NCBI GenBank assembly: GCA_020628865.1
Contig: JAHDEJ010000019.1
Location: forward strand, 1-64,000
Direction of reading: 5' to 3'
DNA from: Acidimicrobiales bacterium
GTDB taxonomy: Bacteria > Actinomycetota > Acidimicrobiia > Acidimicrobiales > SHLQ01
Length of the DNA: 64,000 nucleotides
The notes beneath the pieces were generated by a model. The model was given only the letters and a program-made list of their open reading frames with translations, ran no database searches and was not told the DNA's origin. The translations under genes and the position numbers were made by a program. Below are positions 21,081 to 28,421 of this stretch, one piece after another (the stretch's first letter is position 1; each line of letters starts with the position of its first letter).

Positions 21081-22253
21081 GTGAACCGAACGCCCGCCGC
21101 CACCCTCGGTCATCGCGCCTCCCTCGACGTGCTTCGTGGCCTCGCAGTGCTGCTCGTCATCGCGCTGCACTACGCCGGTCAGGCCCGACCGCTCATTCCC
21201 GGTGCCGGAATCGGCGTCAACGTCTTCTTCGTCCTGAGCGGGTTTCTGATCACCAGGCTGCTCATCGAGGAATCGGTCCGGGCGAAGCGGATCGATCTTC
21301 GGGCGTTCATGCGCCGACGCGCCGCCCGGCTCCTCCCCGCACTCGTGCCACTGCTCGGCTGGGTGCTGATCGCCGAGTTCGTGTTCGGCATCTACGGCGA
21401 CCCGGAGGGTGTGCTGCGAGGTGTCGCTGCGACCGCGTTGTATGTCCGGAACTGGTTGACCGTCGCCGGCGCCGGGGAGCCGGCGCTCGGCATCGCCTGG
21501 TCGCTTGCCGTGGAGGAGCAGTTCTATCTGGTCTGGCCGCCGATCTTCGCGGTCATGGTCCGGCGCAGCGGTCTCCGGCGGATCCGATTCCTCGCCGACG
21601 TCCTCGTGGTGTTCGCGGTCGCTCAGACGGCGATCCGGTCGGCCGTCTTTGACCAGTCGACAGACATCCTCAAGTACGCCACCGACACGAACGGCATGAT
21701 CGGCTTGATGGCCGGCTGCGTGCTGGCACTGCGCCTCGACATCGCTGCGGCCGACGGCGCTCGCCGCCGGGCCTGGCAGGTGGCGGCGGCCATCGGCGCA
21801 GCCACCCTCTCGGCGCTCGTACTTCTTGTCGGCGAGTCCGACCTGCTCCCCCAGGGCGGCTGGGCGGCGGCCGCCGCCGCCAGCGTGGCGCTGATCGGCT
21901 GGTCCGTCTGTTGTCTCCCGAGTTCGGCCGGGCAGCGGCTCCGAACGCTGCGTTGGATCGGGCGACACAGCTACGGCCTGTACCTGTGGCACCTCCCCGT
22001 CTTCGCGGTGGTGCTGGCCTGGCTGCCGGGTGCGGGGATCGTCGGCACCCGACTGATTGCCCTGATCGGCTCGTTCGTCGTCGCCTGGTTGTCCATGCGT
22101 GTCGTGGAAGCACCAGCTCGCCGCTGGATCCTCGCCCGCGGCGACCGCCGCGACGTCGATGTGACCGAACGGGTGGACCTTCGATCCGAGCCGTCAGCCG
22201 ACGATGGCGAGCTCGTGATCGACGATGTTGAGCGGGTCGGGCCCGTTCGCTGA
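21081..22253 (+). CDS. Acyltransferase family 3 membrane protein (OafA-like)
   Basis: A 390-residue acyltransferase-3 protein with about ten membrane helices. It is expected to move an acyl group (often acetyl) across the membrane onto a sugar or lipid of the cell envelope. The N-terminal signature SLDVLRGLAVLLVIALHY with its catalytic histidine, and GVNVFFVLSGFLITRLL, are clear. The middle has SLAVEEQFYLVWPP, and a late WIGRHSYGLYLWHLPV is typical. The GTG at 21081 has GGAG six bases before it. The 3' end overlaps the convergent peptidase gene by 60 bases. No SGNH domain is attached. Confidence 0.9.
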   Translation: MNRTPAATLGHRASLDVLRGLAVLLVIALHYAGQARPLIPGAGIGVNVFFVLSGFLITRLLIEESVRAKRIDLRAFMRRRAARLLPALVPLLGWVLIAEFVFGIYGDPEGVLRGVAATALYVRNWLTVAGAGEPALGIAWSLAVEEQFYLVWPPIFAVMVRRSGLRRIRFLADVLVVFAVAQTAIRSAVFDQSTDILKYATDTNGMIGLMAGCVLALRLDIAAADGARRRAWQVAAAIGAATLSALVLLVGESDLLPQGGWAAAAAASVALIGWSVCCLPSSAGQRLRTLRWIGRHSYGLYLWHLPVFAVVLAWLPGAGIVGTRLIALIGSFVVAWLSMRVVEAPARRWILARGDRRDVDVTERVDLRSEPSADDGELVIDDVERVGPVR

Positions 22254-23294
22254 CGCGACGACGATGTCCTCGATCCGGGCGCCCCACTTGCCCGGCACGT
22301 AGATGCCCGGCTCGACGGAGAAGGCGTTGCCCACATCCAACTGATCCGTGTTGCCCTCGACGATGTACGGCTCCTCGTGCGCCTCGACGCCGATGCCATG
22401 ACCGGTTCGGTGGACGAAGTGGTCGCCGTGGCCGGCAGCGGCGATCATGCCCCGTCCGACCCGGTCCACGTCCTCGGCCGGCGTGCCGGCTCGGACCGCA
22501 GCGACCGAAGCGGCCTGGGCGTCCTGCAGCACCTGGTAGAGCTCGGCGAACTCGGCTGGTGGCTGGCCTGTGTAAACACACCGCGTGAGGTCCGAGCAGT
22601 AACCGACGCCATCGTCGCCGTACATGGTCCCGCCGAAGTCGCAGAGCACCACCTCGTTCTCACGGATCACACGGTCGCCGGCGTGATGATGCGGGCTGGC
22701 GGCGTTCTCACCGGCTGCCACGATCGCGAAGTTGACCTTGCCATGGCCTTCCTCGAGGATCTGGCGTCCGAGCTCGGCCGACACCGCAGCCTCGGTCTGC
22801 CCGACGAGCGGGATCTCGCCGGATCGCAGGCGACCGGCGATCCGGTCGACGGCGTGCGCGGCCGCCCGGAGCCGTTCGACCTCGTCCGGCGTCTTGACGG
22901 CCCGCAACGGCGTCATGACCTCGGATGCGCTGCGGAAGTGGAGTTCGGGCGACCGATCGAGCAGGCCGATCACGAAACGCGCCCAGGTGGTGTCGCCGAT
23001 CGCCACCTCACGCGCACCGCCAAGCAGGGTGACGACATGATCGAGCGGGTCCTCGGTCTCGCCCCACGGCAGGAGGGTGAATTCGTCACGCTCGGCGACG
23101 AGTGGTGCTTCGAGCTTCGGGATGACGAGCCGGGGCTCGCCCTCCAACGGCACGACGAGCATGGTCAACCGTTCGAGCGGCATCGCCTCGTAGCCCGTGA
23201 GGTACGGGAGATCGGCGCCGACCGAAAGAAGCAGCGCGTCGAGACCCTTTGCGGTCATCTCCTGTCGGGCTCGTTCGATCCGGTCCGCGAACAT
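22194..23294 (-). CDS. Xaa-Pro peptidase, M24B family
   Basis: A 366-residue creatinase/prolidase-fold metallopeptidase that cleaves at proline-containing peptides in the cytoplasm. The N-terminal domain covers about 1-125, and the pita-bread catalytic domain follows. Its five metal ligands are visible: aspartates in LCDFGGTMY and YCSDLTRCV, a histidine in HRTGHGIGVEAHEEP, and glutamates in FSVEPGIYVPG and ARIEDIVV. Length is normal. ATG 23294. It stands between the lipoate genes and the acyltransferase, whose end it overlaps. Confidence 0.94.
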   Translation of the reverse strand: MFADRIERARQEMTAKGLDALLLSVGADLPYLTGYEAMPLERLTMLVVPLEGEPRLVIPKLEAPLVAERDEFTLLPWGETEDPLDHVVTLLGGAREVAIGDTTWARFVIGLLDRSPELHFRSASEVMTPLRAVKTPDEVERLRAAAHAVDRIAGRLRSGEIPLVGQTEAAVSAELGRQILEEGHGKVNFAIVAAGENAASPHHHAGDRVIRENEVVLCDFGGTMYGDDGVGYCSDLTRCVYTGQPPAEFAELYQVLQDAQAASVAAVRAGTPAEDVDRVGRGMIAAAGHGDHFVHRTGHGIGVEAHEEPYIVEGNTDQLDVGNAFSVEPGIYVPGKWGARIEDIVVASANGPDPLNIVDHELAIVG

Positions 23295-23369: not shown

Positions 23370-25067
23370 TCAGCCCCTGGCGGCGGCCTCGCCCTGTTTG
23401 GCGTGATAGCTGGATCGGGTGAGCGGAGACGCTTCGACATGGCTGAGGCCGAGCTCCTGCTCCCCGATGCGCTTCAGCTCGTCGAACTCGGTTGGTTCCC
23501 ACCAGCGGGCGACCGGCAGATGGTTCGACGTTGGCCGGAGGTACTGCCCGATGGTGACGATGTCCACGCCGACGGCGGCGAGATCCGCCATCGTCGACAC
23601 GACTTCGTCGAAGGTTTCGCCCATTCCCACGATGATCGAGGACTTGGTGACCAATCCGGCATCGGCAGCCCGGCCGAGCACGGCGAGGCTGCGTGCGTAC
23701 GACGCCGATGGGCGAGCGACACGTTGGAGCCGGGCAACCGTCTCGATGTTGTGGTTCATGACGTCGGGGCGAGCGGCGTTGATGACGTCCAGTGACTCTG
23801 CGTCGCCCTTGCAATCACTGATGAGCACCTCTACCCGGGCGCCCGGGATGCGGTCCCGGATTGCGGCGACAGTGGCGGCCACGTGTGCGGCCCCGCCGTC
23901 GGCGAGATCGTCGCGGGCGACCATGGTGACGACGGCGTAGTCGAGCCCCATCTTCTCGACCGCTTCGGCGACCTTGGCCGGCTCGGCGGGGTCGGGTGCT
24001 TCGGGGTGACGGGTGTCGACCAGACAGAAACCGCATTTTCGGGTGCACCGTTCGCCGAGCACCATGAACGTGGCGGTGCCGTCGTTCCAGCAGTCGAAGA
24101 TGTTCGGGCACCCGGCCTCTTCGCAGACGGTCACGAGGTCGAGGCTGCGCATGACGGACTTGAGGCGCCGGTACTCGGGGCCCATGTCGGCCTTGACCCG
24201 CATCCAGTCCGGTTTGCGGGAGGAGATCTGCAGGCCGCTGGTGACGCCGGCTTCGGCCAGCCGGCCGCTCAAGCGGACGGAGGTGCCTTCGAGGTGCGCT
24301 GTCGGATCGGGCTCGGATGCGTCCGGAACAGCGCCGTAGCTGCCCGGTCCGGAGCGTTCACCGGGCCCTTCTCCGCGGGAGAACGGTGTGAGGTCCTCCG
24401 GCCGATCGCGCCAGACGACGTCCTGACGATCGAGGGATCCTCCCCACGCCGATGCGGCGTGGTGGACGATGCGGTCGACGACGGTGCGCATGTCGACGTC
24501 GATGCCTTCGGCCCGGAGCGAGGTGACTGCCTTGTCGGGAATTCCGCACGGCACCATCCGTTCGAACCAGACCATGTCCGGGTCGACGTTGAGGGAGAAG
24601 CCGTGCATGGACCGGCCGCGGCTGAGGCGAACACCGATGGCGGCGATCTTTCGTGGATTGTCGGAGCCGGGAGCCACCCACACGCCCGGATAGTCGTCGA
24701 GCCGACCGGCGTCGGGCAGCCCGAGGTCGGCGAGGGTGTCGATCAGGATCTGCTCGACGGTGTGCACGTACGCCACCGTGTCGGCCATTCCGCCGCCGCG
24801 CTTGCCCGGCACCCACACGATCGGGTAGCCGACGAGCTGACCGGGCCCATGCCAGGTGATGTCGCCGCCGCGGTCGGCGGTGACGAGCTCGGCACCGACC
24901 TCGGCCGGGTTGACCAGCAGATGTTCGGTGGTTGCCCTGGCCCCGAGCGTGAACACGGGTGGGTGTTCGAGCAGGAGGAGATGGTTGTCGGGTGACGAGG
25001 TGTAGAGACGACGCTGCAGTAGCAGGGCGTCGTCCCAGGTGACGCGGCCGAGCCAACGGGTCCGCAA
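23370..25067 (-). CDS. lipBA: LipB-LipA fusion: octanoyltransferase and lipoyl synthase
   Basis: A 565-residue frame carrying both enzymes of lipoate synthesis without a stop between. LipB (about 1-215) shows the substrate loop RGGDITWHGPGQ, lysine 138 in RKIAAIG and cysteine 172 in MVPCGIPDKAVTSL, which match the catalytic lysine and cysteine of the family. LipA (about 265-565) shows the auxiliary cluster CEEAGCPNIFDCW, the radical-SAM CTRKCGFC and the closing RSSYHAKQ. LipB loads octanoate onto carrier proteins, and LipA inserts two sulfurs. The start is uncertain: TTG 25067 gives LipB residue numbers close to those of known LipB proteins, but lacks a clear ribosome binding site. Downstream of the E2 gene and in the same direction. 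Confidence 0.85.
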   Translation of the reverse strand: MRTRWLGRVTWDDALLLQRRLYTSSPDNHLLLLEHPPVFTLGARATTEHLLVNPAEVGAELVTADRGGDITWHGPGQLVGYPIVWVPGKRGGGMADTVAYVHTVEQILIDTLADLGLPDAGRLDDYPGVWVAPGSDNPRKIAAIGVRLSRGRSMHGFSLNVDPDMVWFERMVPCGIPDKAVTSLRAEGIDVDMRTVVDRIVHHAASAWGGSLDRQDVVWRDRPEDLTPFSRGEGPGERSGPGSYGAVPDASEPDPTAHLEGTSVRLSGRLAEAGVTSGLQISSRKPDWMRVKADMGPEYRRLKSVMRSLDLVTVCEEAGCPNIFDCWNDGTATFMVLGERCTRKCGFCLVDTRHPEAPDPAEPAKVAEAVEKMGLDYAVVTMVARDDLADGGAAHVAATVAAIRDRIPGARVEVLISDCKGDAESLDVINAARPDVMNHNIETVARLQRVARPSASYARSLAVLGRAADAGLVTKSSIIVGMGETFDEVVSTMADLAAVGVDIVTIGQYLRPTSNHLPVARWWEPTEFDELKRIGEQELGLSHVEASPLTRSSYHAKQGEAAARG

Positions 25068-25135: not shown

Positions 25136-26947
25136 TCAGGTGATCTCGGCTTCCCAGTCGGTGGTCTCGATGATGTCGCGGAGCTTCGCGAGGAAGGCGG
25201 CTGCGTAGGCACCATCGAAAGCTCGGTGGTCCCAGGCGAGGGCCAGCACACCAACGGAGTGAATGGCAATGCTCTCGCTGCCGAAGTCGTCGGTGACGAC
25301 GACCGGCTTGCGATGGACGCCGTCCGTGCTGAGGATGGCGACCTGCGGCTGGTTGATGATCGGGAACTGCATCATCGTGCCGTACTGGCCTGGGTTGGTG
25401 ATGGTGAACGTGCCACCGGACAGGTCGTCGGGCGTCACCTTCTTGGAGCGGGCACGGGTGGCGATGTCGACCACGTCCCGGCTGAGCTGCCGGAGGCGCT
25501 TGCCCTCGACGTTCTTGACGACCGGAGCGAGCAGACCGTCGAAGTTGAGGTCGACGGCGATGGCGACGTTGAGGTCCGAGTGCATGATGACGTGGTCGTC
25601 GCTGAGCGACGCGTTCATCATCGGGAAGTCGCGCATTGCGTCGGCGACGGCCCGAAGAATGAATGGCAGGTAGGTCAGGCTGAAGCCTTCTTCGGACTTC
25701 CACTCGGCCTTGTGACGGCGACGGACGACCTCGACGCCTTCGAAGTCGACCTCCATCGCGGTGAGGACATGAGGCGAGGTCGCCTTGGACATCACCATGT
25801 GCTCGGCCGTCTTGCGCCGGATGTTGTTGAGCGGCACAGACGCGCCGTCGGCGGCTGCGGCGGGAGCCGCCGGAGCGGGTGCTGCCGGAGCCGGCGGCGC
25901 GGGAGCGGCGGCCGCAGGGGTCGGGGCTGCCGGAGCGGGGGCGGGCGGGGCCGGGGCAGGTGCAGGCGGAGCTGCCGGCGCTGCGGCGGCAGCGGGCTCG
26001 CTGGGCGCAGCAGGCGCAGGCGGGGCAGCGGGCGCAGAACCTGCGGCCCGGGCCTGCACGACCGCTTCGACGTCCTTGCGGGTGATGCGACCACCGACGC
26101 CGGTGCCGGTGATGGTCGCGGGATCGAGCGAGTTCTCGGTGATCAGTCGGCGAACGACTGGCGACAGCACAAGGCCGGACAGATCGGCGGCCGGTGCCGC
26201 TGCGGCAGGCGCCGGCGCTGCCGGGGCAGCGGGAGCGGGCGGCGCGGGTGCTGGTTCCGGAGCGGCCGGCGGTGCCGGAGCCTCGGCCACGGGAGCCGGA
26301 GCGGCAGCGGCGGGTGCCGGAGCAGCGCCGGCAGCGGCAACACGGGCCACGACAGTGCCGACCTCGACGGTCTCACCTTCGGGAACGAGGATCTCGCTGA
26401 CGACACCGGCGACCGGGGAAGGAACTTCGGAGTCGACCTTGTCGGTCGACACCTCGAAGAGCGCCTCGTCCTCGGCGACGGCGTCGCCAACCTGCTTGAA
26501 CCACTGGGTGATCGTGCCTTCGGTGACCGACTCGCCGAGCATCGGCAGGGTCACGTCGGCCGCTTCGCCAGCCGGTGCGGGAGCGGCGGCGGGTGCTGCG
26601 GCCTCGGGCGCAGGAGCGGCCGGGGCGGGTTCCGGCGCAGGGGCGGGTGCCGCCTCCGGGGCCGGTGCTGGTGCTGCCTCGGGAGCAGCTGCCGCCGGGG
26701 CCGGTGCGGCAGCACCGTCGCCCACACGGGCGAGGACTGTACCGACGTCGACCGTTTCGCCCTCGGGAATCAGGATCTCGGTGATGACGCCGCTCACGGG
26801 TGAGGGCACCTCGGAATCGACCTTGTCGGTCGACACCTCGAAGAGCGCCTCGTCCTCGGCGATCGTGTCACCGACCTGCTTGAACCACTGGGTGATGGTT
26901 CCCTCGGTAACGGACTCTCCCAGGAGGGGAAGGGTGATGTCGGTCAT
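25136..26947 (-). CDS. sucB: Dihydrolipoamide acyltransferase (E2) with two lipoyl domains
   Basis: A 603-residue E2 component of a 2-oxoacid dehydrogenase complex. It transfers acyl groups from lipoyl arms to CoA. Two lipoyl domains (about 1-76 and 130-206) each contain the lipoylated lysine in VSTDKVDSEVPSP. They are joined by long alanine-proline linkers. A peripheral-subunit-binding domain lies near 259-299 (VRRLITENSLDPATITGTG), and the catalytic domain runs from about 370 with WDHRAFDGAYAAAF near 572. A strong AAGGAG precedes the ATG. With AceE and Lpd in this window it most likely serves pyruvate dehydrogenase, but annotation as SucB is also possible. Confidence 0.93.
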   Translation of the reverse strand: MTDITLPLLGESVTEGTITQWFKQVGDTIAEDEALFEVSTDKVDSEVPSPVSGVITEILIPEGETVDVGTVLARVGDGAAAPAPAAAAPEAAPAPAPEAAPAPAPEPAPAAPAPEAAAPAAAPAPAGEAADVTLPMLGESVTEGTITQWFKQVGDAVAEDEALFEVSTDKVDSEVPSPVAGVVSEILVPEGETVEVGTVVARVAAAGAAPAPAAAAPAPVAEAPAPPAAPEPAPAPPAPAAPAAPAPAAAAPAADLSGLVLSPVVRRLITENSLDPATITGTGVGGRITRKDVEAVVQARAAGSAPAAPPAPAAPSEPAAAAAPAAPPAPAPAPPAPAPAAPTPAAAAPAPPAPAAPAPAAPAAAADGASVPLNNIRRKTAEHMVMSKATSPHVLTAMEVDFEGVEVVRRRHKAEWKSEEGFSLTYLPFILRAVADAMRDFPMMNASLSDDHVIMHSDLNVAIAVDLNFDGLLAPVVKNVEGKRLRQLSRDVVDIATRARSKKVTPDDLSGGTFTITNPGQYGTMMQFPIINQPQVAILSTDGVHRKPVVVTDDFGSESIAIHSVGVLALAWDHRAFDGAYAAAFLAKLRDIIETTDWEAEIT

Positions 26948-27011: not shown

Positions 27012-28421
27012 CTAACCGTGCAGGCCCCGGCCGGTCAGGGCCATCACGGTTTCGCCGAAGAGTTCGCTCATGGTCGGGTGCGGCTGGATGAAGGAGGCGA
27101 CCTCGTCGACGGTGGCTTCCCAGTTGATCGCGAGGTAGCCCTGGCCGAGTTGTTCGGTGACCCAAGGGCCCACCATGTGCACGCCCAGGATTCGCCCGGC
27201 GGTGCCGTCAGCGTTCTTCTCGGCGATGACCTTCACGAGACCGTCGGTCTCGCCCACGATCATCGCTCGGCCGTTGCCGTTGAACTTGTGGGTCGACGTC
27301 ACGATGTCGAAACCGGCTTCTTTGGCCGAGTCTTCCGTGTGGCCGGCGAAGGCGACTTCGGGGTGGCAGTAGATGCACCACGGGACGTTCTGGTAGTCGA
27401 CCGGCTGCGGGTCCTCTCCGAGGATGTCGCGAATGGCCACCATGCCCTCGGCAAAACCGACGTGGGCGAGCTGTGCGGTGGCGATGATGTCGCCAACGGC
27501 CCAGACGCCGGGCACCGAGGTGCGGCAGTTCTCGTCAACGGGAACGAATCCACGTTCGTCGAGGGGCACGCCCACTGCGTCGAGACCGAGAAGGTCGGCG
27601 TAGGGGCGACGGCCGATGGAGAGCACGATCATGTCGACGTCGACGGATTCGCCATCTCCGAACGTCACACGCTTCTGGCCGGCGACGTCCTCGTGGCCCT
27701 GCACCATGACGCCAGTGCGAATGTCGATGCCGCGTCCCTTGAGGGAGCGTTCGACGACGCGTGCGGCGGCCGGGTCGACGCCCGGAATGATCTTGGGCAT
27801 CGCCTCGAGCACGGTGACCTTGGTGCCGAGGTCGGCCATCATCGAGGCGAACTCGATGCCGATCGCGCCGCCACCGATGACGGCGGCGGAGCCGGGAAGT
27901 TCGGGCACGGCGAGCAGTTCATCGGAGGTGACGATGGAGGTGCCGTCGACGTCGAAGCCGGGGATGGTTCGGGGCACCGAGCCGGCAGCGATGATGAGGT
28001 TGTCGCCGCTGACCTGGACGTCGCCGGAGGCGCCGCCGCTGATGTTGACGACCTTGGTGTCGCCGACGGAGAAGATGGATCCGATGCCGTCGAAGACGGT
28101 GACCTTGCGGTGCTTGAGCAGTCCGGTGAGGCCGCTGGTCAGCGTGTCGATCACCTTCTGCTTGCGGGTTTGGGTGACGCTGAAGTCGACGGTCGGCTCG
28201 GACGTGGTGATGCCGAACGTGTCGGCGTGCGAGACGGCACGGAAGACCGCTGCGGTCTCGAGCAGTTCCTTTGCGGGGATGCAGCCCACGTGCAGGCAGG
28301 TGCCACCGACGCGGCTCTTCTCGATCATCGCAACGTTCAGGCCTGCGGCCGCTCCGTAGAGGGCGGAGGCATACCCGGCCGGGCCACCGCCGACGACGAC
28401 TACATCAAAATGGTCCGACAT
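27012..28421 (-). CDS. lpd: Dihydrolipoyl dehydrogenase (E3)
   Basis: A 469-residue flavoprotein that reoxidises dihydrolipoamide and passes electrons to NAD+. It shows FAD-binding VVVGGGPAGYASALYGA, the redox disulfide GGTCLHVGCIPAKELL (cysteines 41 and 46), the NAD-binding AAVIGGGAIGIEFASMMADLG, WAVGDI and the C-terminal HPTMSELFGE with its catalytic histidine. AGGAG lies six bases before the ATG. It is 64 bases upstream of the E2 gene, so lpd, E2 and lipBA form one transcription direction. Confidence 0.97.
   Translation of the reverse strand: MSDHFDVVVVGGGPAGYASALYGAAAGLNVAMIEKSRVGGTCLHVGCIPAKELLETAAVFRAVSHADTFGITTSEPTVDFSVTQTRKQKVIDTLTSGLTGLLKHRKVTVFDGIGSIFSVGDTKVVNISGGASGDVQVSGDNLIIAAGSVPRTIPGFDVDGTSIVTSDELLAVPELPGSAAVIGGGAIGIEFASMMADLGTKVTVLEAMPKIIPGVDPAAARVVERSLKGRGIDIRTGVMVQGHEDVAGQKRVTFGDGESVDVDMIVLSIGRRPYADLLGLDAVGVPLDERGFVPVDENCRTSVPGVWAVGDIIATAQLAHVGFAEGMVAIRDILGEDPQPVDYQNVPWCIYCHPEVAFAGHTEDSAKEAGFDIVTSTHKFNGNGRAMIVGETDGLVKVIAEKNADGTAGRILGVHMVGPWVTEQLGQGYLAINWEATVDEVASFIQPHPTMSELFGETVMALTGRGLHG

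Follow-up and report, generated by a model that had tools for sequence, protein, structure and literature searches.

A fused octanoyltransferase–lipoyl synthase gene, lipBA, conserved throughout the Acidimicrobiia

The two steps of lipoyl assembly are catalysed by octanoyltransferase (LipB) and lipoyl synthase (LipA). LipB forms an octanoyl-thioester on its own cysteine and then transfers the octanoyl group to a lysine of a lipoyl domain; LipA inserts two sulphurs, with one [4Fe-4S] cluster cleaving SAM and the other serving as the source of sulphur. E. coli and other bacteria make the two enzymes as distinct polypeptides. In contrast, a sequence-only reading of a 64,000-nucleotide stretch of DNA from a member of the Acidimicrobiales (hereafter "the window") placed both enzymes in one reading frame, raising the question of whether a single chain with both activities is made from this locus, and what might be gained by joining them. 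We conclude that the gene, lipBA, very probably encodes one bifunctional polypeptide for both steps, and that it most likely arose by a single fusion of an adjacent gene pair in an ancestor of the Acidimicrobiia and has been kept since then.

On the minus strand of the window, the lipBA frame is free of stops from at least position 25703 down to a TGA at 23370, and on its upstream side it is still open through the 3' end of the neighbouring E2 gene (Table 1). Residues ~4–214 of the predicted protein match LipB (NF010925, 180.8 bits against a cut-off of 155; TIGR00214, 134.9 bits against a cut-off of 83.6), and residues 280 to about 559 match LipA (TIGR00510, 347.4 bits against a cut-off of 310.25). 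The enzyme families, catalytic residues and order of steps are those of LipB and LipA in E. coli and other bacteria. The Cys/Lys dyad of LipB is present as Lys140 (codon 24648–24650) and as Cys174 within a PCG motif (codon 24546–24548); the sequence-only reading had recognized both residues, but gave them as 138 and 172, each two short of the count from the TTG at 25067. That reading had also reported two cysteine clusters and an RSSY motif in the LipA half, and these we can place: the auxiliary cluster (CX4CX5C) is formed by Cys315/320/326, the radical-SAM cluster (CX3CX2C) by Cys341/345/348, and the C-terminal RSSY is R551-S552-S553-Y554. Across an alignment of 66 fused relatives, with 41–80% identity to the window protein, we observed no variation in K140, C174, either set of cysteines or R551-S552-S553. 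Fold comparison matched residues 261–565 to M. tuberculosis LipA (5exk; Z 42.9, 1.8 Å, 293 residues) and residues 1–213 to LipB (2qhs, Z 30.1; M. tuberculosis 1w66, Z 29.3). The folds thus agree domain by domain, but all three structures are of separate chains and give no linker or LipB–LipA interface. Hence, both halves are ordinary members of their families, and, given that membership, LipBA most likely has both activities; the new feature is the joining itself, with a putative functional advantage.

Table 1. Features of the lipBA locus (window coordinates; aa, amino acid residues of the fused protein)
Feature	Coordinates	Strand	Evidence or remarks
lipBA, fused octanoyltransferase–lipoyl synthase	23370..25067	(-)	565 aa counted from TTG 25067; start uncertain
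LipB domain, aa 1-213	24429..25067	(-)	NF010925, TIGR00214, PF21948; LipB structures 2qhs, 1w66
Interdomain linker, aa 214-260	24288..24428	(-)	stop-free linkers, column counts, third-position bias
LipA domain, aa 261-565	23373..24287	(-)	TIGR00510, NF004019; 5exk; N-terminal helix V-R-L-x-G-R-L-x-x-A-G-V, RKPxW
Internal TTG	24270..24272	(-)	sole in-frame ATG/GTG/TTG of linker region; 18 codons before RKPxW
E2 acyltransferase, two lipoyl domains, likely substrate	25136..26947	(-)	directly upstream; stop overlaps lipBA frame
Dihydrolipoyl dehydrogenase (Lpd)	27012..28421	(-)	upstream of E2
M24 metallopeptidase (Xaa-Pro type)	22194..23294	(-)	downstream; often adjoins lipBA in relatives

The LipB fold ends at residue ~213 and an N-terminus like that of M. 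tuberculosis LipA begins at ~261; the linker is therefore ~48 residues long, close to the 50 or so estimated beforehand. Directly C-terminal of LipB is a widespread motif, R-x-D-V-x-W…D-L-x-x-F-S-R-G-x-G-P-G (residues 214–236); a tether whose length varies comes next, and then the conserved helix that forms part of the LipA N-terminus. Across the class, the length of the join ranges from 32 to 175 residues. The longest, in L190:316-2529, contains degenerate repeats of the REHDGAREHDR type.

An open frame can occur by chance in GC-rich DNA. We compared 116 distinct linkers from across the Acidimicrobiia at the DNA level, and found no in-frame stop in 7,156 codons; the other five frames of the same linkers contain 126, 224, 87, 77 and 205 stops. 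The 15 loci with less than 50% GC, a sample that includes reduced genomes of ~1 Mb with 33–37% GC, have no in-frame stop in 832 codons, whereas their other forward frames contain 45 and 93. We conclude from the stop counts of the other frames and from the low-GC members that this is not a chance open frame. Moreover, substitutions between closely related linkers at the first, second and third codon positions number 5, 1 and 28 (L001 versus L059) and 9, 4 and 44 (L031 versus L032), a third-position bias indicating that the linker is translated and under constraint. These data also bear on whether two genuine genes were merged by a stop or frameshift lost in assembly, an error that the sequence-only reading had named as its own potential refutation. 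The source assembly of the window is in 113 contigs, and among the relatives there are gaps or single frameshifts in three loci (L099, L102 and L107) and one stop by a contig edge (genome G103). However, the 116 stop-free linkers are distinct and come from many independent assemblies, and the same frame is found in L059, an independent locus that is 96% identical to that of the window. Thus, an assembly artefact is refuted at the level of the class, and its probability for this gene is close to nil.

Translation through the linker would be compatible with a second product, a separate LipA made from a start within the linker alongside the full-length protein. The window has one candidate codon, the internal TTG of Table 1; the linkers of most relatives contain some GTG or TTG in frame, accompanied by a short Shine-Dalgarno-like match in 28 of 81 loci. 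However, numerous GTGs are expected anyway in GC-rich codons, and the positions of these codons differ between loci, such that none of the 81 shares a conserved internal start; five of them, including one 80% identical to the window (L060), have no ATG, GTG or TTG in the linker at all. The TTG of the window has no Shine-Dalgarno-like match upstream, and is missing from L059 despite its 96% identity. The sequence-only reading had found no good internal start, with this TTG as the sole alternative, and its lack of conservation leads us to regard the production of a separate LipA as unlikely.

The start of lipBA itself is less certain than the sequence-only reading implied. The codon corresponding to the TTG at 25067 that it chose is CTG in L059, and there is an alternative, a CTG that overlaps the stop codon of the E2 gene (CTGA, 25136–25139). 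The same CTGA is found in the same register in eight loci (L059, L024, L075, L076, L079, L081, L083 and L098), none of which has an in-frame ATG, GTG or TTG from the E2 stop up to the conserved LipB N-terminus; in 28 other loci, this position is occupied by ATGA, GTGA or TTGA. On this comparison, lipBA of the window may start at the CTG overlapping the E2 stop. The frequent overlap of the E2 stop with the first codon of lipBA suggests translational coupling of the substrate to the enzyme that modifies it. The order lpd–E2–lipBA is usual across the class, such that the gene of the enzyme adjoins that of its likely substrate. One low-GC marine group (L085–L090) has lpd directly upstream of lipBA, with no E2 gene between them.

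A search of other Acidimicrobiia, as the sequence-only reading had proposed, revealed the fusion throughout the class. Matches were obtained in 142 of 148 genomes at the level of the order and in 141 of 148 at the level of the class. In the order search, 84 matches in 83 genomes span both halves, with a stop in only one, at a contig edge in G103. In most of the remaining genomes, LipB and LipA were matched as separate pieces within a single long open frame, since the variable linker interrupts the alignment. There were five apparent exceptions (G103, G124, G143, G191 and G230), all of which have the LipB tail, linker and LipA in one frame; their oddities are contig edges, the stop near an edge in G103, or an extra unfused pair in G191. 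Thus, the fusion is kept in all members of the Acidimicrobiia that were read at both parts, and the placement of LipB and LipA in one frame is borne out by the open frame, the intact catalytic residues and conservation across the class. In the 5.36-Mb source assembly, the fused gene is the only match to the query, in a single copy. Two genomes, G067 and G124, have two fused copies each.

Adjacent lipB–lipA pairs are common in the sampled genomes of other Actinomycetota, Pseudomonadota (398 genomes) and Chloroflexota (301 genomes). Where such pairs outside the class were read, or gave a joined match, they were always interrupted by a stop codon or by a shift to another frame. At E ≤ 1e-95, neither the Pseudomonadota nor the Chloroflexota genomes gave an uninterrupted match, and there was none among the non-Acidimicrobiia loci of the named scan, by which alone the remaining phyla are covered; rare LipB–LipA fusions may occur in other phyla. 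Horizontal spread to viruses or plasmids was considered and rejected, as we detected no viral relative of lipBA and no plasmid record with 80% coverage of the query. In a tree of concatenated LipB and LipA sequences, obtained by a quick search with no bootstrap and no inferred root, 39 of 39 fused rows form one group (SH-aLRT 99), adjoining separate pairs from other Actinomycetota. Since the root was not inferred, the distinction between gain and loss rests on the distribution of the fusion among outgroups; the tree, in which all fusions group together, points to a single origin close to the base of the class. The simplest history, and the one that fits these sequences best, would be a single fusion at that point of two genes that were already adjacent. 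The extra unfused pair of G191 (L145), which this genome has in addition to its fusion, lies far outside the fused clade and is of outside origin. The sole separate row inside the fused clade, placed on LipA alone, is a LipA without LipB (L101:937-2019), 72% identical to LipA of the window, on a 5-kb contig binned as Acidobacteria, where it lies next to an unrelated gene of opposite orientation. It would thus have become separated secondarily or be a stray additional copy, and its position in the tree indicates that the two halves can come apart.

In the mechanism that we propose, the LipB half would take octanoyl from acyl carrier protein onto Cys174, assisted by Lys140, and transfer it to a lipoyl-domain lysine. 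The targets would be both lipoyl domains of the adjacent E2, together with further E2s and GcvH. The LipA half would then use radical-SAM chemistry to insert two sulphur atoms. The sequence-only reading had suggested that the fusion channels octanoyl carrier protein. We disagree on this point: any species passed from LipB to LipA would be the lipoyl domain carrying its octanoyl group, rather than octanoyl-ACP. AlphaFold2 modelling of the fusion (66-row alignment) gave a pLDDT of 91.1 and a pTM of 0.92, a confident prediction in which the two halves are fixed relative to each other. As a control, we modelled an artificial read-through of separate in-frame lipB–lipA neighbours from other bacteria; the domains were well folded, the join was disordered and the pTM was 0.55, although the alignment was shallower (23 rows versus 66) and of different diversity, such that part of the gap in pTM may be due to alignment depth. 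If the halves pack in the predicted arrangement, an octanoylated domain could go from LipB to LipA without entering bulk solution. Such a hand-off is plausible and compatible with the model, but fused neighbours acting in consecutive steps can lack channelling, which counts against it.

The fusion might instead do no more than ensure equal amounts of LipB and LipA, with independent domains and with diffusion of the octanoylated domain as in E. coli. Adjacent genes whose products act in consecutive steps are often fused, and a tightly coupled machine need not tolerate joins ranging from 32 to 175 residues; on the other hand, independent domains would not lead us to expect a conserved motif ahead of the variable tether, nor a domain arrangement predicted with much greater confidence than that of the control. 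We place this explanation only a little below an even chance, and a fixed arrangement that eases hand-off and plain co-expression appear about equally likely. That the chain is made as one and then cut within the linker to give LipB and LipA is, in our view, very unlikely: the tether at residues ~240–250 is poorly ordered in the model, with pLDDT below 50 at 243–246, but it lacks a conserved cleavage site, and constant cleavage would leave little reason to keep the frame for so long. Returning to the uncut bifunctional protein, a more speculative possibility, towards which we are doubtful but not dismissive, is a rigid module with two sites, where a docked lipoyl domain would be octanoylated at LipB and swing, unreleased, to LipA, and where production would be tied to that of E2 by the stop–start overlap. 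LipBA would then be a natural covalent LipB–LipA complex, revealing how the two enzymes face each other.

Physical cooperation between LipB and LipA is hard to test with separate proteins, whereas a natural fusion allows intact and split forms to be compared, and offers one protein to crystallise for the arrangement of the two enzymes. Its retention across a whole class, including reduced genomes of ~1 Mb, suggests that the joining is tolerated and probably useful, and lipBA can serve as a simple marker of the class. The LipB–LipA architecture may already be present, uncommented, in protein databases; for many fused proteins of ~560 residues, the database name may cover one half only. The closest named architecture is NF053790 (LplA_LipA_fuse), which resembles lipBA in having an acyl-attachment enzyme of the same superfamily N-terminal to LipA, but in which the N-terminal half is, by its name, a lipoate-protein ligase (LplA) rather than LipB. 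The window protein scores 335.6 bits against this profile (cut-off 800), and its best stretch, 329–605 of 606 profile positions, corresponds to the LipA half alone; with no alignment across both halves, we rejected membership in this family. We found no description of a LipB–LipA fusion in openly licensed literature, including a 2023 study of the evolution of lipoate assembly (PMC10332631) and one on metabolic genes that are frequently fused (PMC4921024); other sources may have mentioned it before.

LipBA probably has substrates besides the neighbouring E2, since GcvH and several biotinyl/lipoyl-domain proteins are encoded elsewhere in the source genome. The only other protein of the LplA/LipB catalytic superfamily in that genome is one of 220 residues, encoded on another contig (L196:896-1558; G000:C29). 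It matches lipoate-protein ligases weakly, far below their cut-offs, and is possibly a salvage ligase.
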